Assembly: GCA_944322885.1 (NCBI GenBank)
Contig: CALUQH010000013.1
Span: 1 to 56,442, forward strand
Source of the DNA: Candidatus Gastranaerophilales bacterium
GTDB lineage: Bacteria > Cyanobacteriota > Vampirovibrionia > Gastranaerophilales > Gastranaerophilaceae
Length of the DNA stretch: 56,442 nt
Reading direction: 5' to 3'
In this document: positions 8,227 through 48,107 of the stretch, piece after piece
How the letters are laid out: each line of letters begins with the position of its first letter
How positions within the stretch are numbered: the first letter of the stretch is position 1
The notes under the pieces: generated by a model
The model's database searches: none
The model's input: the letters and a program-made list of their open reading frames with translations, nothing else
What the model was told of the DNA's origin: nothing
Position numbers and translations under genes: made by a program

Positions 8227-9150
8227 ATGATAAAATTAGCTGTGATGAATCAAATAGATTGTAAAAGTAAATATTATGATTTTTTAAACGAAAATATAGA
8301 AACTCTTATGGCGTTTGAAAAGTATAGGAAGAAATTACTTTTTAGGACAATTTCTAAATCTGTTTTGTTCTTTTTATGCGCATTGTTTATTTTATATGTG
8401 CTATCTTTGTTAATATTAAATAATGGTTATAATCCTGTATTATTTCCGCTGCTGCTGTTTGGATTGTATGTTTGTTTATTAAAGTCCATGAGTGTTATAA
8501 TTTTGACCGACAGAGAATATCAGCAAAAGTTTAACGAAGAAGTTTTAACTCTGATTTTACACCCTGTTGCAAATTTTAAAAATTGGCCTAAAAATCAAAA
8601 TACTGCGGCGATTCTTGATTCTCAACTTTTTTCTAATTTTGATACACAGGAAGATGCTTCTTGTATTTTTGGATATTATGGAAGTAAAAGTGTTACAATT
8701 TCTGATACCCGTCTTACATTGCCTGTAAGAGCTTCTGAGAAACCGGATTTATTTAAAGGAATTATCATTCAGGCTGAAGTTGAAAAAAATATTAAAAATC
8801 ATGTCATATTAATTTCGAAAAACGAGAAAAAGAATAATAAATATAATTGTTATAAAACCCATATTAAGGAAATTGATGAAAATTTATATACTTTTATAAA
8901 AAATGATTCTAATTTACAATTTATTTCTGATGAATTATGGCAAATTTTAAAGAAGTTTTCAGAAGTTTATTCCGCAAAGAGTTTAAGTTTTTCTTATAAA
9001 AATAATACTTTAGTTGTTGCAATGCGTCAAAGAAAAGCTATGCCATTCGGTTATCTGTTCAGGTCAATTATTAATCTAAAAAATTACGATGAATTTATTG
9101 AAAAGTTCATCGTAATTTATGAGTTGATTGATTTTATTAATAAAAATTAA
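8227..9150 (+). CDS. DUF3137-like membrane protein
   Basis: The 307-residue protein has two N-terminal transmembrane helices (about 43-65 and 70-93) and a cytoplasmic-looking C-terminal part. The pattern IFGYYGSKSVTISDTRL followed by FKGIIIQAEV resembles DUF3137 (galanin-like) proteins, whose function is unknown. No clear ribosome binding site precedes the ATG. Its 3' end overlaps the convergent GT5-like gene by 4 bp. The family call comes from recalled motif similarity. Confidence 0.6.
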   Translation: MIKLAVMNQIDCKSKYYDFLNENIETLMAFEKYRKKLLFRTISKSVLFFLCALFILYVLSLLILNNGYNPVLFPLLLFGLYVCLLKSMSVIILTDREYQQKFNEEVLTLILHPVANFKNWPKNQNTAAILDSQLFSNFDTQEDASCIFGYYGSKSVTISDTRLTLPVRASEKPDLFKGIIIQAEVEKNIKNHVILISKNEKKNNKYNCYKTHIKEIDENLYTFIKNDSNLQFISDELWQILKKFSEVYSAKSLSFSYKNNTLVVAMRQRKAMPFGYLFRSIINLKNYDEFIEKFIVIYELIDFINKN

Positions 9151-11855
9151 GCTATTTTGTCTGCTTTTGGAGTTGTTTTTTCTGATTCGAAAATTACAGG
9201 TGTTTCAGTTTTTGGCTGTGTCTGTTTTTTCCCATGTTTTTTCATATACATATATGCTGCAGTAGATAGTGCAACAACTGCAACACCCGCGCCGACGGCT
9301 GTTTTAACCCATTTATTTTTTACATTTGTAACTTCTTTTTTGGCATTTTCTACAACTTTGGCCGTTTCTTTTTTGACTGTTTCTGCAGTATTGTCTATAA
9401 TACCTCTTTTTAAATCTTCTTCCGATGCACCGACAAGACGTTTCATCTGGGTTTTATCCCTTGCTTCCCAGCCTTCATCTATGTGCCATATATCATTACT
9501 GTACATTTTATTAGCTGATTTCCCGCCGTTAAATTCATCATTGTTATGCCAGTCAAATTCTTCTTCAATGTTCTTTTTACATTTAGCAATGTAACTTGGT
9601 TTGTCATTGAAATATTCTTCTGCCATTTGTTTCAGACAGTCTGAAACTTCATCTGATGCTCTTGCAATTCTTGCATCATCAATTTTATCTGCAGGTGTAT
9701 CCCAGCTTAATTTATCAAAAGTAGGATTCATTTCGGGAGCAGTTTTGGTAAGCCAACCGTTTTCTTTGTTTGTATAATCTACGGGCCCGCCGGCTGCTGT
9801 TGCAAGATACGGTACACCTCCGGCTTTTGATTCAAACGGTGTAATACCGCAAATTTCATCTCTTGATGTGAAGATACCATGAGTTGCACAGCCTACAAGC
9901 TTGTTAGGATAACGTCCATCCGCTAACATTAGGCTTCCTTTGTATGCTCCGTTTTCTAAATTCTGGATTTCATTGAATGTATCATGAATAAGTTTCCATT
10001 CTCTTGAATTTTTATCAAACGGCAAGTCTCCCCAGCCTATTTGTAGGTTTACACGTTGTTTTATTTCTGCAGGGACATCATCTCTCATAAGGAATTTTTT
10101 GAAGCCCATAAGCGTAATCGGGAAACCTTTTTGTTCATCAGGTCTGCCCCAACCAACTATTAACATGGCGCCTTTTTTGAAATTGGCCAGACTTCCGAAT
10201 ACACTTCTTCCCTGTTCAATTTGTAAATCGTTATAAAATACTTTGTTCAAGGCCTGTTGCCCCTTTTGTTCTGCTTTTTTCAGGATATTGGTAAGCCATA
10301 CAGCGTTCTTTTCCCTATTTGCAATAATTTCTTCAATATTATGTCCGTTATATTTTAAAGGAGTAAAGCCGGATTTCTCTGCAGACAGAGTATTGTTGCC
10401 TCTGCCAAAATCACCTGTATTATTGTCCAGTCCGAGGCTGGCAGGCGTTGAACCGTTTAAGGGACTAATTGTTTCAATTTCTCTTAAATCTGCGCCAAGT
10501 CCGGGAGCTACATCCATATTCGGATTTTTCATCTGTCTGTCAAAGTTTGGGGATACTGTTCCGATGGAGGAATTATTAGGATTTACTTTTTTGGCAACAA
10601 TTGCAATTTTTGTAATATTGTATGTGCCGAAGAAATCTTTAAATTGTCCGATATAAGGATCAAATGCTTTTCTTACAAAATTTTTCTCAACTTCCGTTAA
10701 ATTATTCCATCCTTTGGCGTTAAAATTTTGTAGAAGCTCATATTGCGGATGATTTTTTATTTTTTCAACATCTTCAGGAGTGAATAACATTCTTGCAAAT
10801 GCGAAAGGATCATCTGTTGTCCCTTGATAAGGTCTTCTGGGATTATGCATTGTAAAATGGGAAATAGTTCCGTTATAGAAGCTGTTTCCTCTCGCCGATT
10901 CATCCGCAATATGGCTGAAAACGGCTGCTACCGGTCTGTCATGTCCCCAGATGCTTGCAGGATTAAAGTTCCCGAATTCTTCAGTATTCATCTGCTCTCC
11001 GGCCTTAATTACCGCACGACAGAAGTCAGAATTTATTATTTCGGAATTCACTCCCCCATGGCCTTCCGGTCCGTAACTATAAGGTTTCGGAATTTTTGCA
11101 AGTTCTGTTGTATACATCCAATAGTTTGGAGTATCAGCAAGTTTATTGTAGCTCGGATTTTCTTTCGCTATTTTAAACAGGTGATATCTGACTGTTTGGG
11201 TTTTGCCGATATCTATATCGGACATTCTTTCAAATTCGCCCTTAGCACTTGTCGGTTCTATGATACAATATTTTGAAAGGCTGTCAGCATCTTTCCCGTT
11301 TGGTTCACTTTGAATTACGTATCTCAAATTTTTCGGGTCAAAATTATGAGCTTTTGCGAATTCTTCAAGAGTTTGCCCCGGATCTCCGGATAAAAACCAT
11401 TTTGCTTCTATTTGCTCCGGTAGTTTACCGTCTTTTGTTCGTTTTACGTCTTTCAAGTAAACAAATTTGTATCCGCCTTTGGGGTTGTTGTATTCATGGA
11501 AAGGCATGATGCTCCTAACATCCAATCCTTCATTTTTTCTGAAACTTTCGGGAGCTTCTGCCGTTACAACTCCGAGACCGCCCTGGTAATCTTCCGGCAA
11601 GCCTGTTGCTTTATTTTCATACGGCAGTGAAAGTATCTGATTTATGTTTTTACTGCCGCCTGTAAAAGTAATATATGAGATCCCATGTGTTTTTAGTGAT
11701 TTATTACCGAAAAATATCGGGGGGGGGGCAACATTATATGCTGCCGGATTATAGCTGTTACCATATTGATTGGCCGTAATGTTGCTTGTTGATTTTCGGT
11801 TGTTTTCACTCCCTGCAAGCGCAGTTTGATAAGATTGAATTGGACTTATACGCAT
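9147..11855 (-). CDS. Membrane-anchored glycogen/starch-synthase-like glycosyltransferase (GT5-like)
   Basis: The 902-residue protein carries GT-B/GT5 landmarks: GGLGVV near the start of the catalytic region, GHDRPVAA (matching the catalytic HD region), TMHNPRRPYQG (compare TVHNLAYQG), GRPDEQKGF with Arg and Lys, and SRDEICGITPFESKAGGVP with the conserved Glu. The usual KxGGL lysine is replaced (YQGGL). Family enzymes are near 480 residues. This one has an N-terminal disordered region, internal insertions, a helical linker and a C-terminal transmembrane helix (TAVGAGVAVVALSTAAYMYM), so it is probably tethered to a membrane. Codons 43-46 lie on a C10 tract, in frame as sequenced. Substrate unknown. 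Confidence 0.7.
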   Translation of the reverse strand: MRISPIQSYQTALAGSENNRKSTSNITANQYGNSYNPAAYNVAPPPIFFGNKSLKTHGISYITFTGGSKNINQILSLPYENKATGLPEDYQGGLGVVTAEAPESFRKNEGLDVRSIMPFHEYNNPKGGYKFVYLKDVKRTKDGKLPEQIEAKWFLSGDPGQTLEEFAKAHNFDPKNLRYVIQSEPNGKDADSLSKYCIIEPTSAKGEFERMSDIDIGKTQTVRYHLFKIAKENPSYNKLADTPNYWMYTTELAKIPKPYSYGPEGHGGVNSEIINSDFCRAVIKAGEQMNTEEFGNFNPASIWGHDRPVAAVFSHIADESARGNSFYNGTISHFTMHNPRRPYQGTTDDPFAFARMLFTPEDVEKIKNHPQYELLQNFNAKGWNNLTEVEKNFVRKAFDPYIGQFKDFFGTYNITKIAIVAKKVNPNNSSIGTVSPNFDRQMKNPNMDVAPGLGADLREIETISPLNGSTPASLGLDNNTGDFGRGNNTLSAEKSGFTPLKYNGHNIEEIIANREKNAVWLTNILKKAEQKGQQALNKVFYNDLQIEQGRSVFGSLANFKKGAMLIVGWGRPDEQKGFPITLMGFKKFLMRDDVPAEIKQRVNLQIGWGDLPFDKNSREWKLIHDTFNEIQNLENGAYKGSLMLADGRYPNKLVGCATHGIFTSRDEICGITPFESKAGGVPYLATAAGGPVDYTNKENGWLTKTAPEMNPTFDKLSWDTPADKIDDARIARASDEVSDCLKQMAEEYFNDKPSYIAKCKKNIEEEFDWHNNDEFNGGKSANKMYSNDIWHIDEGWEARDKTQMKRLVGASEEDLKRGIIDNTAETVKKETAKVVENAKKEVTNVKNKWVKTAVGAGVAVVALSTAAYMYMKKHGKKQTQPKTETPVIFESEKTTPKADKIA
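11719..11728 (-). repeat. C10 homopolymer tract inside the GT5-like gene
   Basis: Ten consecutive G on the + strand encode Ala43-Pro44-Pro45-Pro46 (GCC CCC CCC CCG) on the coding strand. Any length change other than a multiple of 3 would truncate the enzyme after about 42 residues. The present length is in frame. Confidence 0.9.
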
Positions 11856-13403: not shown

Positions 13404-14230
13404 ATGAAAAAGATTTTAAATTTTGAGAAAGTCGGGGGGGGGGCACTCTAGGTTTTGCAGGAGGGTTAGAGCTCAAGAAGATAACATGTCAAGTTGTTAT
13501 CAGTGAGCGAAGTTCACTAAAAAAGAAAGTTGCCTTTACTCTTGCCGAAGTGTTAATAACACTTGGTATAATAGGTGTTATTGCTGCAATGACTATGCCT
13601 TCCTTGATTTCCAAACATAGAGAAAGAGTCTTTGTTGAACAACTAAAACAAAGTTATTCTATTTTTTCACAGGCATATTTGATGGCTATAGCAGAAAATG
13701 GTCCGGCTGATTTTTGGGACTTGGGTGAAAATGCTACTATGGAAGGAGCTGAAAAAGTTTTTGATATATTTGAACCATATTTAAGTAAAGTACAATCCTG
13801 TAGAGGAGAATCCGGATGCTTTGCTGAGAGTTATAAAACATTTAGCGGTGTGGATTATGGTTTTGCCCCTTATGATCATAGTAAGTATACAAGAGGTATA
13901 TTAGCTAATGGAGTATCATTTGCTTTTGCAAGTGGCGGAAGCGGCTGCCAACTCAGTCACGCTCCAGTATATCCGAAAATCTGTGCTGTTTTATATGTTG
14001 ATTTAAATGGTTATAAATACCCAAATAAGACAGGTGTTGATTATTTCGGATTTTATATAACTCCAAATGCAATTTTACCTATTGGGATGAAAGGATATGA
14101 TGGAGGGACAAATGGTTATACATGTCAGTATAAAGGAACTGGGCGCGGTAATGGTACCGGATGTACTGCCTGGGTATTAAGCAAGCAAAATATGGATTAT
14201 TTGCGTCGTGACATTTCCTCTGATTGGTAG
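13404..14230 (+). CDS. Prepilin-like protein 1, phase-OFF (needs one more G)
   Basis: AAAGGAG precedes the ATG at 13404. As sequenced, translation gives 15 residues (MKKILNFEKVGGGAL) and stops at TAG just after a G10 tract. The pilin frame has no start upstream of the signature apart from a GTG at 13550, and it hits TGA at 13424. One extra G (11), or 8, joins the frames into about 275 residues: a 44-residue leader ending KKKVA, then FTLAEVLITLGIIGVIAAM and the pilin body. The body keeps family features: a Cys pair (SCRGESGC), VDLNGYKYPN followed by GVDYFGF, and a late Cys pair. The body looks intact, so this is a switch rather than decay. Confidence 0.85.
13434..13443 (+). repeat. G10 tract controlling prepilin 1
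   Basis: Ten G followed by CACTCTAGG, at codons 11-14 of the leader. 13550 minus 13404 is 146, which is 2 mod 3, so exactly one added base restores the frame. Confidence 0.92.
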
Positions 14231-15007: not shown

Positions 15008-15784
15008 ATGCAAAAATTCGGTTATACTGCAATTTCGGGGGGGGCATCTCTCAGACTAGGTAAGGGTTTAAAATGGATTGCTTACTATTCATCGGAAAAG
15101 AAATGGGCTTTTACTCTTGCTGAAGTTCTTATTACGCTTGGTATAATAGGTGTTGTTGCTGCGATGACTATGCCTGCATTAATTGCAAATTATCAGCGTA
15201 AGGCTCTTGAAACCTCATTTAAAAAGTCATATTCAGTTATATCACAAGCTATGCAAAGATTAATAAATGAAGAAGGATATATCCCAAAGGCTGAAAATAT
15301 TACTGGCTATGCTGAGACTTTCCTTCTGAGAAAATATTTTATAAGTGCTATTGATTGCTTTAACAAATCGTCAGGAAGCTCCGAATCTTGTGTAAGTTCT
15401 GAAAAGTTTTCTTCATGGTTTGATAGTTTTTATAAAACTTATAATAAAAAAACATTGGCAAGCAGTGCTCACTGGTGGTTTGATGATGGTATGTTTGTTG
15501 CTGCTGACGGAAGTTTTATTTTTTTTGATAATTCAAATACCGATAATTTGCTAATAGGTGTTGATACAAACGGCAAAAAGGCGCCAAATTTATTAGGGCA
15601 TGATGTATTTTTATTTGAGCTGGATTCAGAGACAGGTGCTGTCAGGGGGTATGATGGTAACAATAATAGAGGGGATAAAGCGTCTGAATATTGTGATAGA
15701 AATGCAACTTCGGGACTTAACGGACTTTCATGTGCTTTTGAAGCACTTAAAAATCCTGATGAATATTTTAAAAATTTACCTTAA
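15008..15784 (+). CDS. Prepilin-like protein 2, in frame (G8 tract)
   Basis: The ATG at 15008 is chosen because AAAGGGAG lies just upstream; a TTG at 15002 is less likely. The 258-residue product has a 34-residue leader containing SGGASLRLGKG, encoded partly by G8 (15047-15054), then WA before FTLAEVLITLGIIGVVAAM, the prepilin cleavage/methylation site with Glu5. The body has a Cys pair (DCFNKSSGSSESC), VDTNGKKAPN followed by GHDVFLF, and a late pair (CDRNATSGLNGLSC). Eight G equals the 11-G ON length minus one codon. It is a probable pseudopilin or minor pilin with an unknown role. Its stop overlaps bioA by 4 bp. Confidence 0.85.
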   Translation: MQKFGYTAISGGASLRLGKGLKWIAYYSSEKKWAFTLAEVLITLGIIGVVAAMTMPALIANYQRKALETSFKKSYSVISQAMQRLINEEGYIPKAENITGYAETFLLRKYFISAIDCFNKSSGSSESCVSSEKFSSWFDSFYKTYNKKTLASSAHWWFDDGMFVAADGSFIFFDNSNTDNLLIGVDTNGKKAPNLLGHDVFLFELDSETGAVRGYDGNNNRGDKASEYCDRNATSGLNGLSCAFEALKNPDEYFKNLP

Positions 15785-26234: not shown

Positions 26235-26267
26235 AGATGTTATAATAGTTTTATGAGGAGTATTAGT

Positions 26268-26975
26268 ATGAAAAAATATTGTAATTACTTCAAGAATATA
26301 GGGAGGTGGTATGCTTTGAGCTCTAAATCTGCCTTTACTCTTGCCGAAGTATTAATAACTCTTGGAATAATTGCTGTTGTTGCTGCTATGACATTGCCAT
26401 CTGTTATAATCAACTATCAGAAAGAAAAAACGGTTTCTTATGTCAAGAAGTTTTATAACGAAATAAATAATGCTGTCAGAATGTCTGTTGTTGATAATGG
26501 AGATGTTGAACTGTGGATGGAAGATGCACGCCCTGATAATTACAATGAAAACCTTAAGTTTTTACAGGAATACATTTTACCGTATATAAAATATTTTAAG
26601 GTTGATAACTGTAACAATCAACAGGTTTGCGTATATTTGTCTTACGGTATGTTTACATATAGAGTTGATGGTAATGGCGGTGATATTGTCTTTTATGTGA
26701 ACAGTAAACCCGAAAGAAGTCCTAAAAATTATTTTGCTTTTCAGTTTAATAAACGTAATGATGCTGTTGCAAATTTGAGTAATAAACCTATTGTCGAACC
26801 GTACACATTTCAATGGAATGGGAATTATAATCCACCGAAAGTAAATACTTTAAAAACTGACGGCTTGCTTGGATGTAATTCTTCTGCTGGTAATGCAAGA
26901 TATGCATATTATACAAAATGGATACAATTGAATAACTGGAAAATACCTGATGATTATCCATGGCATGCTAAATAG
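26268..26975 (+). CDS. Prepilin-like protein 3, no homopolymer tract
   Basis: The ATG at 26268 is preferred over 26253 because GAGGAG (26255-26260) sits 7 nt before it. The 235-residue product has a 22-residue leader ending SSKSA, then FTLAEVLITLGIIAVVAAM. Its leader lacks a G tract, although GGGAGGTGG at 26300-26308 might be an eroded one. The body has a Cys pair (NCNNQQVC) and a shortened version of the family motif (VNSKPERSPK followed by YFAFQF). Its stop overlaps lpxK by 8 bp. It is a probable minor pilin or pseudopilin. Confidence 0.85.
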   Translation: MKKYCNYFKNIGRWYALSSKSAFTLAEVLITLGIIAVVAAMTLPSVIINYQKEKTVSYVKKFYNEINNAVRMSVVDNGDVELWMEDARPDNYNENLKFLQEYILPYIKYFKVDNCNNQQVCVYLSYGMFTYRVDGNGGDIVFYVNSKPERSPKNYFAFQFNKRNDAVANLSNKPIVEPYTFQWNGNYNPPKVNTLKTDGLLGCNSSAGNARYAYYTKWIQLNNWKIPDDYPWHAK

Positions 26976-30203: not shown

Positions 30204-30312
30204 ACCTTCTTCTTAAAACCTTCCTCCGATTATATTCTACATGTAATCTGTGTTTTCCGTATCCTCTATTTGTATTAATGATTTTTTTATAAAAGGCAAT
30301 CGCTGTATAAGT

Positions 30313-31067
30313 TCATTTAAGGTTTTTAAAATAATTATTATCGGTCAGAGCAAAGTATGCACAGGTAAAGCCATTCATATTACTCGTAGATGTTTCAGAA
30401 CAGTAGGTGTCTTTCCCATAGGAAAGCCATGTATTTTCCGCTCCCACAGGTAAAACACGACCGTCTTTAGTTATATGAAACATAAATAAATCATAGCCCA
30501 TTCTATTAGGCTTTCTTTTGAAACCGTTAACATCTATTGAAACCAGAAATCCGGAAAATTGGGATTGCTCTCCCTGTTCAAAAAGGTATAATACTCCATC
30601 AGAGGTTAGGAACCCTCCATCATCAAAATATGCTCTGCTTAAAGTATTACCGTTCAGAGTTTTATAATAGGTAAATGTATCATCTTCTTCTAGCAATATA
30701 CAGCCAGTGTTATGGTTTATTTCTCCGCAATATTCGGTAGCTTTAAACTGTGCGGCAAGACGTGTACTAAAACGCGGTCCATAGTTTTCATAAGTAAAAT
30801 CCAGTTCATCTTCGCTTCTGATACTCAAGATAGCCTGCTGTAATATTGAATATTGTTTTTTGAATACCGCCTCTAGTTCCTTTTTGTTAGTGTTGTTTAT
30901 TAACGCAGGTATAGTCATAGCTGCAACTACGCCTATTATACCCAGTGTAATTAAAACTTCGGCAAGAGTAAATCCAAATTTTTTAAAATAAATACAGTTA
31001 TCTAAATTCCTTGCTATACTTGACCTTTGCGGGGGGGGGGCACTCTCAAAGCCTTGATGTTAAACAT
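30313..31067 (-). CDS. Prepilin-like protein 4, phase-OFF (needs one more C)
   Basis: AGGAGGA precedes the ATG at 31067. As sequenced, the frame reads MFNIKALRVPPPRKGQV and stops after 17 residues. The pilin frame has TAA upstream of the tract and no start. One extra C (11), or 8, restores about 251 residues: a 32-residue leader ending YFKKFG, then FTLAEVLITLGIIGVVAAM and the body. The body keeps a Cys pair (YCGEINHNTGC), IDVNGFKRKPN followed by GYDLFMF, and a late pair (CSETSTSNMNGFTC). The intact body argues for a reversible switch. Here the tract encodes Pro, and the G strand is the template strand, opposite to prepilin 1. Confidence 0.85.
31031..31040 (-). repeat. C10 tract controlling prepilin 4
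   Basis: On the + strand, G10 is followed by CACTCTC. 31067 minus 30918 is 149, which is 2 mod 3, so exactly one added base restores the frame. The word G10-CACTCT is identical to that in prepilin gene 1 but in the opposite orientation relative to coding. Confidence 0.92.
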
Positions 31068-31088
31068 TTTTTGTCCTCCTGTTTTTTC

Positions 31089-31117
31089 ATTATAACTCTT
31101 TTTACCGGTAAGTGCAA
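31089..31117 (-). promoter_or_regulatory. Promoter of prepilin gene 4
   Basis: On the minus strand TTGCAC (31117-31112), a 17-bp spacer and TATAAT (31094-31089), just upstream of the AGGAGGA site. Confidence 0.72.
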
Positions 31118-31130
31118 TATATTAATTTAA

Positions 31131-32246
31131 TTAACAAATATACATGCAATCGCCGTATGAGAAAAAGCGATATTTATTTTCGATTGCTTCTTTGTATGCT
31201 TCAAATATAAAATCTTTACCCGCAAGAGCACTTACAAGCATTAAAAGAGTGGATTTGGGCAGATGAAAGTTTGTTATAAGGTTATCTATAACCTTGAATT
31301 GATATGGAGGATAGATAAATAATTCAGAGTGGTCATGGCATGCTTTTATGCAACCGTATTTTTGGTATGCTGTTTCTAAAGTCCTGACAGTTGTTGTACC
31401 GACAGCAACAATCTTTTTTCCCTCAGATTTTGCCCTGTTTATTTGTTCGGCGGCTTTTTGAGAAATTTCAAAAGTTTCTGAATGCATTTTGTGATTTTCA
31501 ACATTTTCACACTGAACCGGTCTGAATGTCCCGAGTCCGACATTCAAGGTAACGTATGCCAGTTCAACCCCTTTAGCTTCAAGTTTTTGTAAAATCTCAT
31601 TTGTAAAATGTAAACCGGCAGTCGGAGCAGCAACCGAGCCTTCATCTTTGGCGTAAACGGTCTGGTATCGTTCAAAATCAAGTTTTTTCAAATCATCATT
31701 CGGAATTTTTCTTTCAATATATGGCGGAAGCGGAATTTGACCGTTTCTGTGCAATACATCAAGGATGTTATCACCTTCAAAGAGTAATTCAACAAGCCAT
31801 TCTCCGTTTTCTTCAAGGCGTTTAATTGCTTTTACCGATAATTCATCGCTGATTTTTATAATCGTATCAGGTTTAACCCGTTTGGAAGGCTTTATTAGGA
31901 CATCCCACAAGCACCCCTCACCCGAATTTGTAAATTCGCAATTCTGCTCATTAACAAATTCTTCCATCTCCCTCAAGGGGCGAGGATAAGAAGGCTTAAG
32001 CAAAAATACTTCAATTTTGGCCCCTGTGTCCTTGTGTCCTATCAAACGTGCAGGAAGAACTTTTGTATTATTCATTACAAGAAGTGTATTGCTATCAAGT
32101 AAGTCTACAATATCGTAAAAATGTTTATGAGAAATGGTTCTATCCTTACGGTTTAGAACCATCATTCTTGAATTTTCTCTTTTATCCGCAGGCATCTGCG
32201 CGATTAATTCTTCCGGTAAATTATAATCATAGTCTGATAAAAGCAT
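31131..32246 (-). CDS. queA: S-adenosylmethionine:tRNA ribosyltransferase-isomerase
   Basis: QueA makes epoxyqueuosine in tRNA from preQ1. The 371-residue length is normal. Landmarks: YNLPEELIAQMPADKRENSRMMVL, VMNNTKVLPARL, GQIPLPPYI, DEGSVAAPTAGLHF and ITNFHLPKSTLLMLVSA. It lies 5 bp downstream of yidC on the minus strand, so co-transcription is likely. Confidence 0.97.
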   Translation of the reverse strand: MLLSDYDYNLPEELIAQMPADKRENSRMMVLNRKDRTISHKHFYDIVDLLDSNTLLVMNNTKVLPARLIGHKDTGAKIEVFLLKPSYPRPLREMEEFVNEQNCEFTNSGEGCLWDVLIKPSKRVKPDTIIKISDELSVKAIKRLEENGEWLVELLFEGDNILDVLHRNGQIPLPPYIERKIPNDDLKKLDFERYQTVYAKDEGSVAAPTAGLHFTNEILQKLEAKGVELAYVTLNVGLGTFRPVQCENVENHKMHSETFEISQKAAEQINRAKSEGKKIVAVGTTTVRTLETAYQKYGCIKACHDHSELFIYPPYQFKVIDNLITNFHLPKSTLLMLVSALAGKDFIFEAYKEAIENKYRFFSYGDCMYIC

Positions 32247-47240: not shown

Positions 47241-48107
47241 ATGAAAAGATTATTTGAAACTGAAAATGTCGGGGGGGAGGGCACTCCTCAGCTAGGTAGA
47301 AGCAAAGATGCAAAGACGCGAAGTCGCAAAGCCAGTATCGTAAATAATACTTTCCTCCCCCGAAGAAGGGATGCAGAGAAACTCTCTTCACTGAAACGAA
47401 CTTATTGTCCTAACGTCTTAACGTCCTATCGTCTAAAGAAATGTGCATTTACCTTAGCAGAGGTCTTAGTAACCTTAGGAATAATCGGAGTTGTATCAGC
47501 AATGACTGTTCCGACATTGATGCAAAATTACCAGCGAAAAGTTTATGTAACGCAATTGCATAAAGTCTATAGTGAAATGTCACAGGCTTTATCTCTTTAC
47601 ATTACAAAAAAAAATGCTGTCAATTTAAAGGAGTCAAGATTTAATACTATTGACGGCTTGAATGATTTTATAAGTTCTCACCTTAAAGTTGTTAAAGACT
47701 GCGGTAGTGCAGTAAAAGACTGTTTTGCTTCGCAATACGGCTATATAAATTCTTCAACTGTTATATCAGGCGGTAATCCTACTTGTAATCGGGTTATCAC
47801 ACTCGCAAGTGGAGCCATACTTTGTATTGATGTTGAGAATGGTTCTGGCAGTATTAATGAAGATGACGAGCAGGAAGGCAGTACGACTAATTTAAAAGGT
47901 GCTGTCGCTACTATAGAGGTTGATGTTAATGGAACAAGCGGACCTAATATTTTCGGCAGGGATTATTTTGTTATGTTTATTGATAATGACGGTACTATAA
48001 AAGATTATGCATTTGAAGAATACGGATTAGTTACTGATTCTTCAAAAGGGTCATATACCGGTGCATTTGGCAAAATTATGGATGACGGGTGGCAGATGAA
48101 TTATTAA
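47241..48107 (+). CDS. Prepilin-like protein 5, in frame with an interrupted G tract
   Basis: AAAGGGG precedes the ATG. The 288-residue product has a very long leader (69 residues) before FTLAEVLVTLGIIGVVSAM. The leader holds VGGEGTPQLGR, encoded by G7-A-G3 (47270-47280), 11 bases with one A, which matches the predicted ON length and cannot slip easily. The rest of the leader contains short tandem repeats. The body has CGSAVKDC and VDVNGTSGPN followed by GRDYFVMF. The late Cys pair of relatives is missing. It is a probable minor pilin or pseudopilin, monocistronic and followed by a terminator. Confidence 0.85.
   Translation: MKRLFETENVGGEGTPQLGRSKDAKTRSRKASIVNNTFLPRRRDAEKLSSLKRTYCPNVLTSYRLKKCAFTLAEVLVTLGIIGVVSAMTVPTLMQNYQRKVYVTQLHKVYSEMSQALSLYITKKNAVNLKESRFNTIDGLNDFISSHLKVVKDCGSAVKDCFASQYGYINSSTVISGGNPTCNRVITLASGAILCIDVENGSGSINEDDEQEGSTTNLKGAVATIEVDVNGTSGPNIFGRDYFVMFIDNDGTIKDYAFEEYGLVTDSSKGSYTGAFGKIMDDGWQMNY
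47301..47331 (+). repeat. Heptamer-like short tandem repeat inside the prepilin 5 leader
   Basis: Units resembling GCAAAGA (GCAAAGAT, GCAAAGAC, GCGAAGTC, GCAAAG) in tandem encode a basic stretch of the leader. Confidence 0.6.
47410..47433 (+). repeat. Octamer tandem repeat inside the prepilin 5 leader
   Basis: Three tandem octamers: CTAACGTC, TTAACGTC, CTATCGTC. They are translated within the part of the leader that prepilin peptidase would remove. Confidence 0.7.

Follow-up and report, generated by a model that had tools for sequence, protein, structure and literature searches.

Pilin antigenic variation in Neisseria involves pilE and pilS with an upstream G-quadruplex. Phase variation at poly-G tracts, including that of gut pilus genes annotated in the OFF state, is already known: in the pilus loci of Bifidobacterium breve, going by the part of the report considered here, the annotated G-tract length is the OFF one and a minority of cells are ON (PMC9187656). 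For Campylobacter jejuni, the parts of two reports considered here give single-colony counts of 257 for G8, 214 for G9, 431 for G10, 77 for G11 and 9 for G12 (PMC4965091), as well as a bias to insertion at G8-G9 and to deletion at G10-G11 (PMC4085013), hence the lengths would be held near 9-10.

The gene described here is a prepilin gene with the ATG at 31067 on the minus strand of a 56,442-nucleotide stretch of Candidatus Gastranaerophilales DNA (the window), and its putative switch is one case of a genus-wide prepilin tract system in Gastranaerophilales. To judge from the considered part of the B. breve report, it resembles the sortase-dependent pili of that species in that a gut commensal has, in its pilus genes, a coding G-tract of 10-11 bases, which is OFF as annotated and turned ON by one base. 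It differs from the two sortase-pilus loci treated there, as the genes here encode N_methyl prepilins, about 50 per genome, with tracts in either orientation, a rule as to the replication strand and a single arithmetic throughout the genus; slippage was measured in B. breve, whereas for the present system it is predicted from the sequence (PMC9187656). With the contingency loci of C. jejuni, as covered by the considered part of that report, it shares many frame-setting coding poly-G/C tracts of similar length, but those loci number 29 and are broader in length, whereas here a single genome has 70 runs, with ten bases dominant, mostly in one gene family that is OFF at the modal length (PMC4965091).

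As far as our searches show, what is new is the lineage, how many family members one genome has, an arithmetic that is OFF by default across the genus, and the replication-strand rule. In the open-licence PMC literature, we found nothing joining Gastranaerophilales with phase variation and, more broadly, nothing among the entries listed on Gastranaerophilales tracts or on a poly-G replication-strand rule; Melainabacteria and phase variation co-occur there, unlinked, in one paper, on flagellins. As in the pilE/pilS system, pilin diversity is tied to a G-rich DNA element. Unlike in that system, the element here is one G10 run rather than a G4 motif of four runs, and the tract-bearing copies in the window are not silent partial cassettes, each having its own ATG, Shine-Dalgarno sequence and full-length body, which speaks against gene conversion of the pilE/pilS type. 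At tract-bearing loci in the host genome, a candidate start generally precedes the tract.

The elements of the gene are:

31089 to 31117, minus strand: sigma-70-like promoter (TTGCAC at 31117-31112, 17-nt spacer, TATAAT at 31094-31089)
31075 to 31080, minus strand: Shine-Dalgarno sequence AGGAGG
31041 to 31067, minus strand: 27-nt leader from the ATG to the tract, MFNIKALRV, with a TAA in the prepilin frame at 31062-31060
31031 to 31040, minus strand: C10 tract on the sense strand (G10 on the plus strand, flanks C...CA), OFF at 10, ON at 8 or 11
30313 to 31030, minus strand: 55-nt spacer followed by the prepilin body (KKFGFTLAEVLITLGIIGVVAAM...), which matches N_methyl PF07963; the frame is open as far as the stop

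With the tract at ten bases, the distance from the ATG to the prepilin motif is 2 mod 3, and the gene is OFF, encoding a 17-residue peptide MFNIKALRVPPPRKGQV followed by a stop. The prepilin frame is entered at tract lengths 11 or 8 only, and is open from the tract to the stop at 30313-30315. The body matches N_methyl PF07963 with 22.9 bits (cut-off 21.2), with the methylation/cleavage motif and a hydrophobic helix; by this motif, the predicted product is a type IV pilin-like prepilin. As in contingency genes, a frame-setting coding repeat is combined with an intact body and intact promoter and Shine-Dalgarno sequence, and a copy at the equivalent site in one relative (G001) has similar promoter boxes at the same spacing. 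The first-pass annotation had given the same arithmetic, the same short OFF product, the upstream TAA and the intact signals and body, and a re-reading of the minus strand agrees with it in each respect. An internal start downstream of the tract was considered and rejected, as the prepilin frame has no ATG, GTG or TTG between the last stop and the motif. Internal start codons do exist in some of the relatives whose spacers are long.

The region between queA and an SLT lytic transglycosylase gene (30204-31130) appears to be a hotspot of prepilin genes: C10 prepilins with similar 5' ends occupy it in the host genome and in G001, G017 has a C10 prepilin with a different 5' end, and most relatives have none or other repeats. 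While queA was matched in 30 of 33 genomes, the adjoining prepilin gene is mostly absent, hence the queA locus provides few direct orthologues. Within queA itself, the stretch 31908-31997 (residues about 84-113) is absent from several relatives, with the queA match split around it; it recurs elsewhere in several genomes of the genus and resembles a dispersed repeat inserted in frame.

C7 matches on both strands of the window number 15, against a mean of 1.1 expected, a value reached in none of 100 shuffles. The other relevant features of the window are:

13404 to 14230, plus strand: second OFF prepilin gene, ATG at 13404, G10 at 13434-13443 (G-sense), OFF peptide MKKILNFEKVGGGAL
15008 to 15784, plus strand: prepilin gene with G8 (15037-15044), in frame, that is, ON
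26253 to 26975, plus strand: prepilin gene without a tract (N_methyl and DUF6613)
47241 to 48107, plus strand: prepilin gene with an interrupted tract G7-A-G3 (11 nt in total), in frame, ON and probably locked
11719 to 11728, minus strand: C10, in frame at ten bases, in a non-prepilin gene of 902 aa (9147-11855); at the same place in some orthologues

Thus the window does contain two family members that are OFF by one base, as had been proposed, the second being the G10 gene at 13404-14230. Interrupted tracts, looked for as a test for locked states, gave two matches only. The 902-aa protein, with C10 in its N-terminus, has no Pfam match, and by eye contains a glycogen-synthase-like GGLGVV region. 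In alignments, its orthologues have either C10 at the same place, or a tract eroded by substitution with a total of still ten bases, or no run. In-frame runs also occur in glycosyltransferase-like and other genes (names from inspection of the translations). As the non-prepilin genes are read through at the modal length and the prepilin genes are not, a modal length that is OFF seems peculiar to the prepilins.

In the host genome (1.86 Mb, 40 contigs), we observed 70 G/C runs of at least 8 bases, 65 of them with a C just before the run when read on the G strand; the length was 10 in 58 runs, 11 in five, 8 in four and 9 in three. All 80 PF07963 matches in this genome lack internal stops, and 50 of the 80 have a G/C run within 450 nt upstream. 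The motif C-G10-CA is present in the host and in 28 of 32 other genomes of the genus, with up to 108 occurrences per genome, and in none of 25 genomes outside the genus; over the 33 genomes of the genus, it occurs 991 times, and its reversed control 27 times. Searching named species genomes for a stricter version of the motif recovered 34 stretches, of which 24 come from Candidatus Gastranaerophilales, three from Candidatus Melainabacteria and seven from uncultured bacterium. As to the four same-genus genomes with no C-G10-CA, prepilin homologues are few in G013, G024 and G028 (18, 25 and 10 matches, respectively) and many in G030.

The frame arithmetic is shared. Among prepilin loci with exactly ten bases, in the host and same-genus relatives, 125 of 135 have the same OFF residue (frame 2): 45 of 49 in the host, 35 of 36 in G027, all seven in G007, and 38 of 43 in other relatives. 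Counted here are loci that have a prepilin motif and whose spacer is open in its frame, and the loci of the relatives were mostly fetched for carrying G10, not for frame; starts were picked by the Shine-Dalgarno score, and some of the exceptions may be mis-chosen starts. In prepilin loci fetched for 9, 11 or 8 bases, the arithmetic was unchanged in 19 of 20, 15 of 16 and 5 of 5 cases, respectively, after 9, 14 and 2 further loci had been dropped as having no prepilin motif within range. Thus the tract length changed and the rest did not, lengths 8 and 11 being ON and lengths 9 and 10 OFF across the prepilin loci. When distinct combinations of sense, leader and spacer are counted, 100 of 112 obey leader + spacer = 1 mod 3, that is, ON at 8 or 11 (binomial p = 7e-35 against 1/3).

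Of 107 loci with a spacer of at least 40 nt, taken without conditioning on openness, 103 have it open in the prepilin frame, compared with one and two for the other two frames. FTLAE loci whose spacers are longer number 13, and all of them are best read at 11; the ORF test was used for the FTLAE loci only, and alignment for the 902-aa gene, since for non-FTLAE tracts this test, ranking by codons after the tract, is blind to the difference between 10 and 11 near an internal start. As the spacers are open in the ON frame, ribosomes must read on from leader to body across a tract of 11 or 8 with a frequency on which selection can act. Four loci (L363, L065, L365 and L376) have long N-terminal extensions with repeated pieces (FTLAEGATHV, SLIREG), in the prepilin frame and upstream of the motif.

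In 33 genomes, tracts of the form C-Gn-CA have 8 bases in 7 cases, 9 in 51, 10 in 991, 11 in 58, 12 in 8 and 13 in 3, so that length 10 accounts for 88.6% of the 1118 tracts counted, these being tracts that end directly in CA (other 3' flanks, including two further matches, are excluded). All lengths come from consensus assemblies, and the symmetric fall-off at 9 and 11 means that the consensus gives no preference for 11 (ON) over 9 (OFF). One genome, G002, seems shifted to longer runs, with 10 seen once, 11 three times and 12-13 three times. The first-pass annotation expected orthologues to keep the tract and vary in its length; given this dominance of ten, the length does not vary freely between species in that way. 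Within the family, lengths 8, 9 and 11 do occur with the flanks and the arithmetic preserved, as in contingency genes. At the ATG-31067 locus itself, the three closest homologues (in G017, G003 and G001) all have C10, hence no length change is seen there. The G003 homologue has a stop in the prepilin frame between the tract and the motif, and may start internally.

In 12 pairs of prepilin bodies with both members at ten bases, dN/dS is 0.08-0.25; for the ATG-31067 gene, it is 0.21 against G001, 0.08 against G017 and 0.09 against G003, with synonymous sites near saturation in the latter two comparisons. The prepilin bodies are under purifying selection and are not decaying, although under phase variation one would not quite expect selection this strong on genes whose consensus is OFF. 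Together with the locus counts given above, it strongly supports the earlier preference for a shared design over decay or assembly error; the scale, the two tract orientations and the replication-strand rule go beyond that proposal.

The consensus yTC-G10-CAnTCTnnaGCT is common to G-sense prepilins, C-sense prepilins (in reverse complement) and other genes. In 12 contigs or contig parts from three genomes, the strand of positive GC skew carries the G-run in 87 of 96 cases, and in all 78 cases where the local skew exceeds 0.015. The orientation of the G-run flips with the skew in host C3 near 100 kb and in G007 C1 near 320-340 kb. Two neighbouring motifs share a strand in 82 of 84 pairs, two neighbouring prepilin genes in 49 of 98, while for short exact runs the strand ratio is 1007:777 for G4, 114:80 for G5 and 6:13 for G6. 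In bacteria the G-rich strand is usually the leading one, and by this rule we take the G-run strand as leading. With such polarity, a prepilin gene uses G10 when on one strand and C10 when on the other, with the same ON lengths. On a tree of 148 bodies, 107 of them tract-bearing, at least 22 changes between G-sense and C-sense are needed, while 60 shuffles need 32.5 on average; the tree was built by FastTree without support thresholds, and hence gives only a rough sign that the sense changed repeatedly. Even the closest pair of opposite sense shares only 60% identity, hence no recent conversion shows up in these data.

Phase variation by slipped-strand mispairing, in which the modal length of ten is OFF and one base short of ON, probably explains the shared arithmetic, the length variants that lack compensation and the intactness of the bodies, and switching presumably takes place within populations. 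Through slippage of DNA polymerase, the C10/G10 run 27 nt past the ATG would gain or lose one base. At 10 or 9 bases the frame would be lost and translation would end within a few codons (OFF), while at 11 or 8 the leader would be joined in frame to the full prepilin (ON). Since ten is modal throughout the genus and nearly every tract-bearing prepilin is OFF at ten, most copies should be silent by default. Each copy would then be switched on rarely and independently, leading to cells with different subsets of a large repertoire, and in consensus assemblies of such mixed populations the modal ten would appear at nearly every locus. This suggests that, at any one time, a cell has a few surface fibre proteins switched on at random; the length change within a population, the protein in ON cells and diversity as the benefit are what we infer. 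Further observations weigh against phase variation by slippage. MutS, missing in some phase-variable species, was found in the host and in all 12 same-genus genomes tested, and the peak at ten is sharp, the lengths in C. jejuni being far broader.

The main rival is programmed slippage at a fixed G10 or C10 tract, where RNA polymerase or a -1 ribosomal shift would sometimes read 11 bases, and every cell would make a little of each prepilin. The 991 tracts of 1118 at ten, the uniform need for +1 and the strong purifying selection on consensus-OFF genes speak in its favour, but about 11% of tracts have other lengths with no compensation, including 9-base tracts that are still OFF. Moreover, rG and rC runs share the arithmetic and would both have to slip alike, and a ribosomal shift at CCC-C, where slippage is usually +1, goes the wrong way; we therefore regard this explanation as unlikely. 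A mobile or copied G10 element of constant length, inserted in a replication-defined orientation, would make the frame offset a by-product. It would account for the flanks common to both prepilin senses and other genes, for the strict strand polarity and, the insertion having a constant length, for the constant residue. However, it leaves unexplained why spacers are open in the ON frame only, and the tract of the 902-aa gene varies by substitution in equal-length alignments with no insertion boundary, both of which weaken uniform insertion as the sole cause of the shared frame. The motif also has no exact match in viral contigs, so that phage carriage is unsupported, and we consider an inserted element quite improbable. 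Decaying genes or an assembly artefact could be suspected from the broken consensus frame in a genome of 40 contigs, but the same arithmetic in many same-genus assemblies, the dN/dS values, the N_methyl matches uninterrupted by stops and the excess of CG10CA over its reversed control already contradict this, and its probability is very small.

The simplest idea for the polarity is an orientation-dependent instability of G-runs at the replication fork, and a bolder one is a dedicated maintenance or insertion process. One can speculate, tentatively and with considerable doubt, that the G10 motif is a replication-polar element, where a fork-coupled polymerase, repair system or factor reading CAnTCTnnaGCT would act on leading-strand G-runs only and hold them at ten; with prepilins fitted both ways, the genome would then carry some 50-100 switchable pilins as a clocked library, OFF by default.

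Most of the tract-bearing pilins will go unannotated, or be annotated too short, when genes are called automatically. The leading-strand rule makes the effects of strand and flank on poly-G stability and equilibrium length testable. If the proposed switching is true, its scale would exceed that in C. jejuni (28-29 poly-G loci), the modal state would be OFF by construction, and an uncultured, widespread gut relative of cyanobacteria would spend dozens of genes per genome on the random switching of surface filaments.
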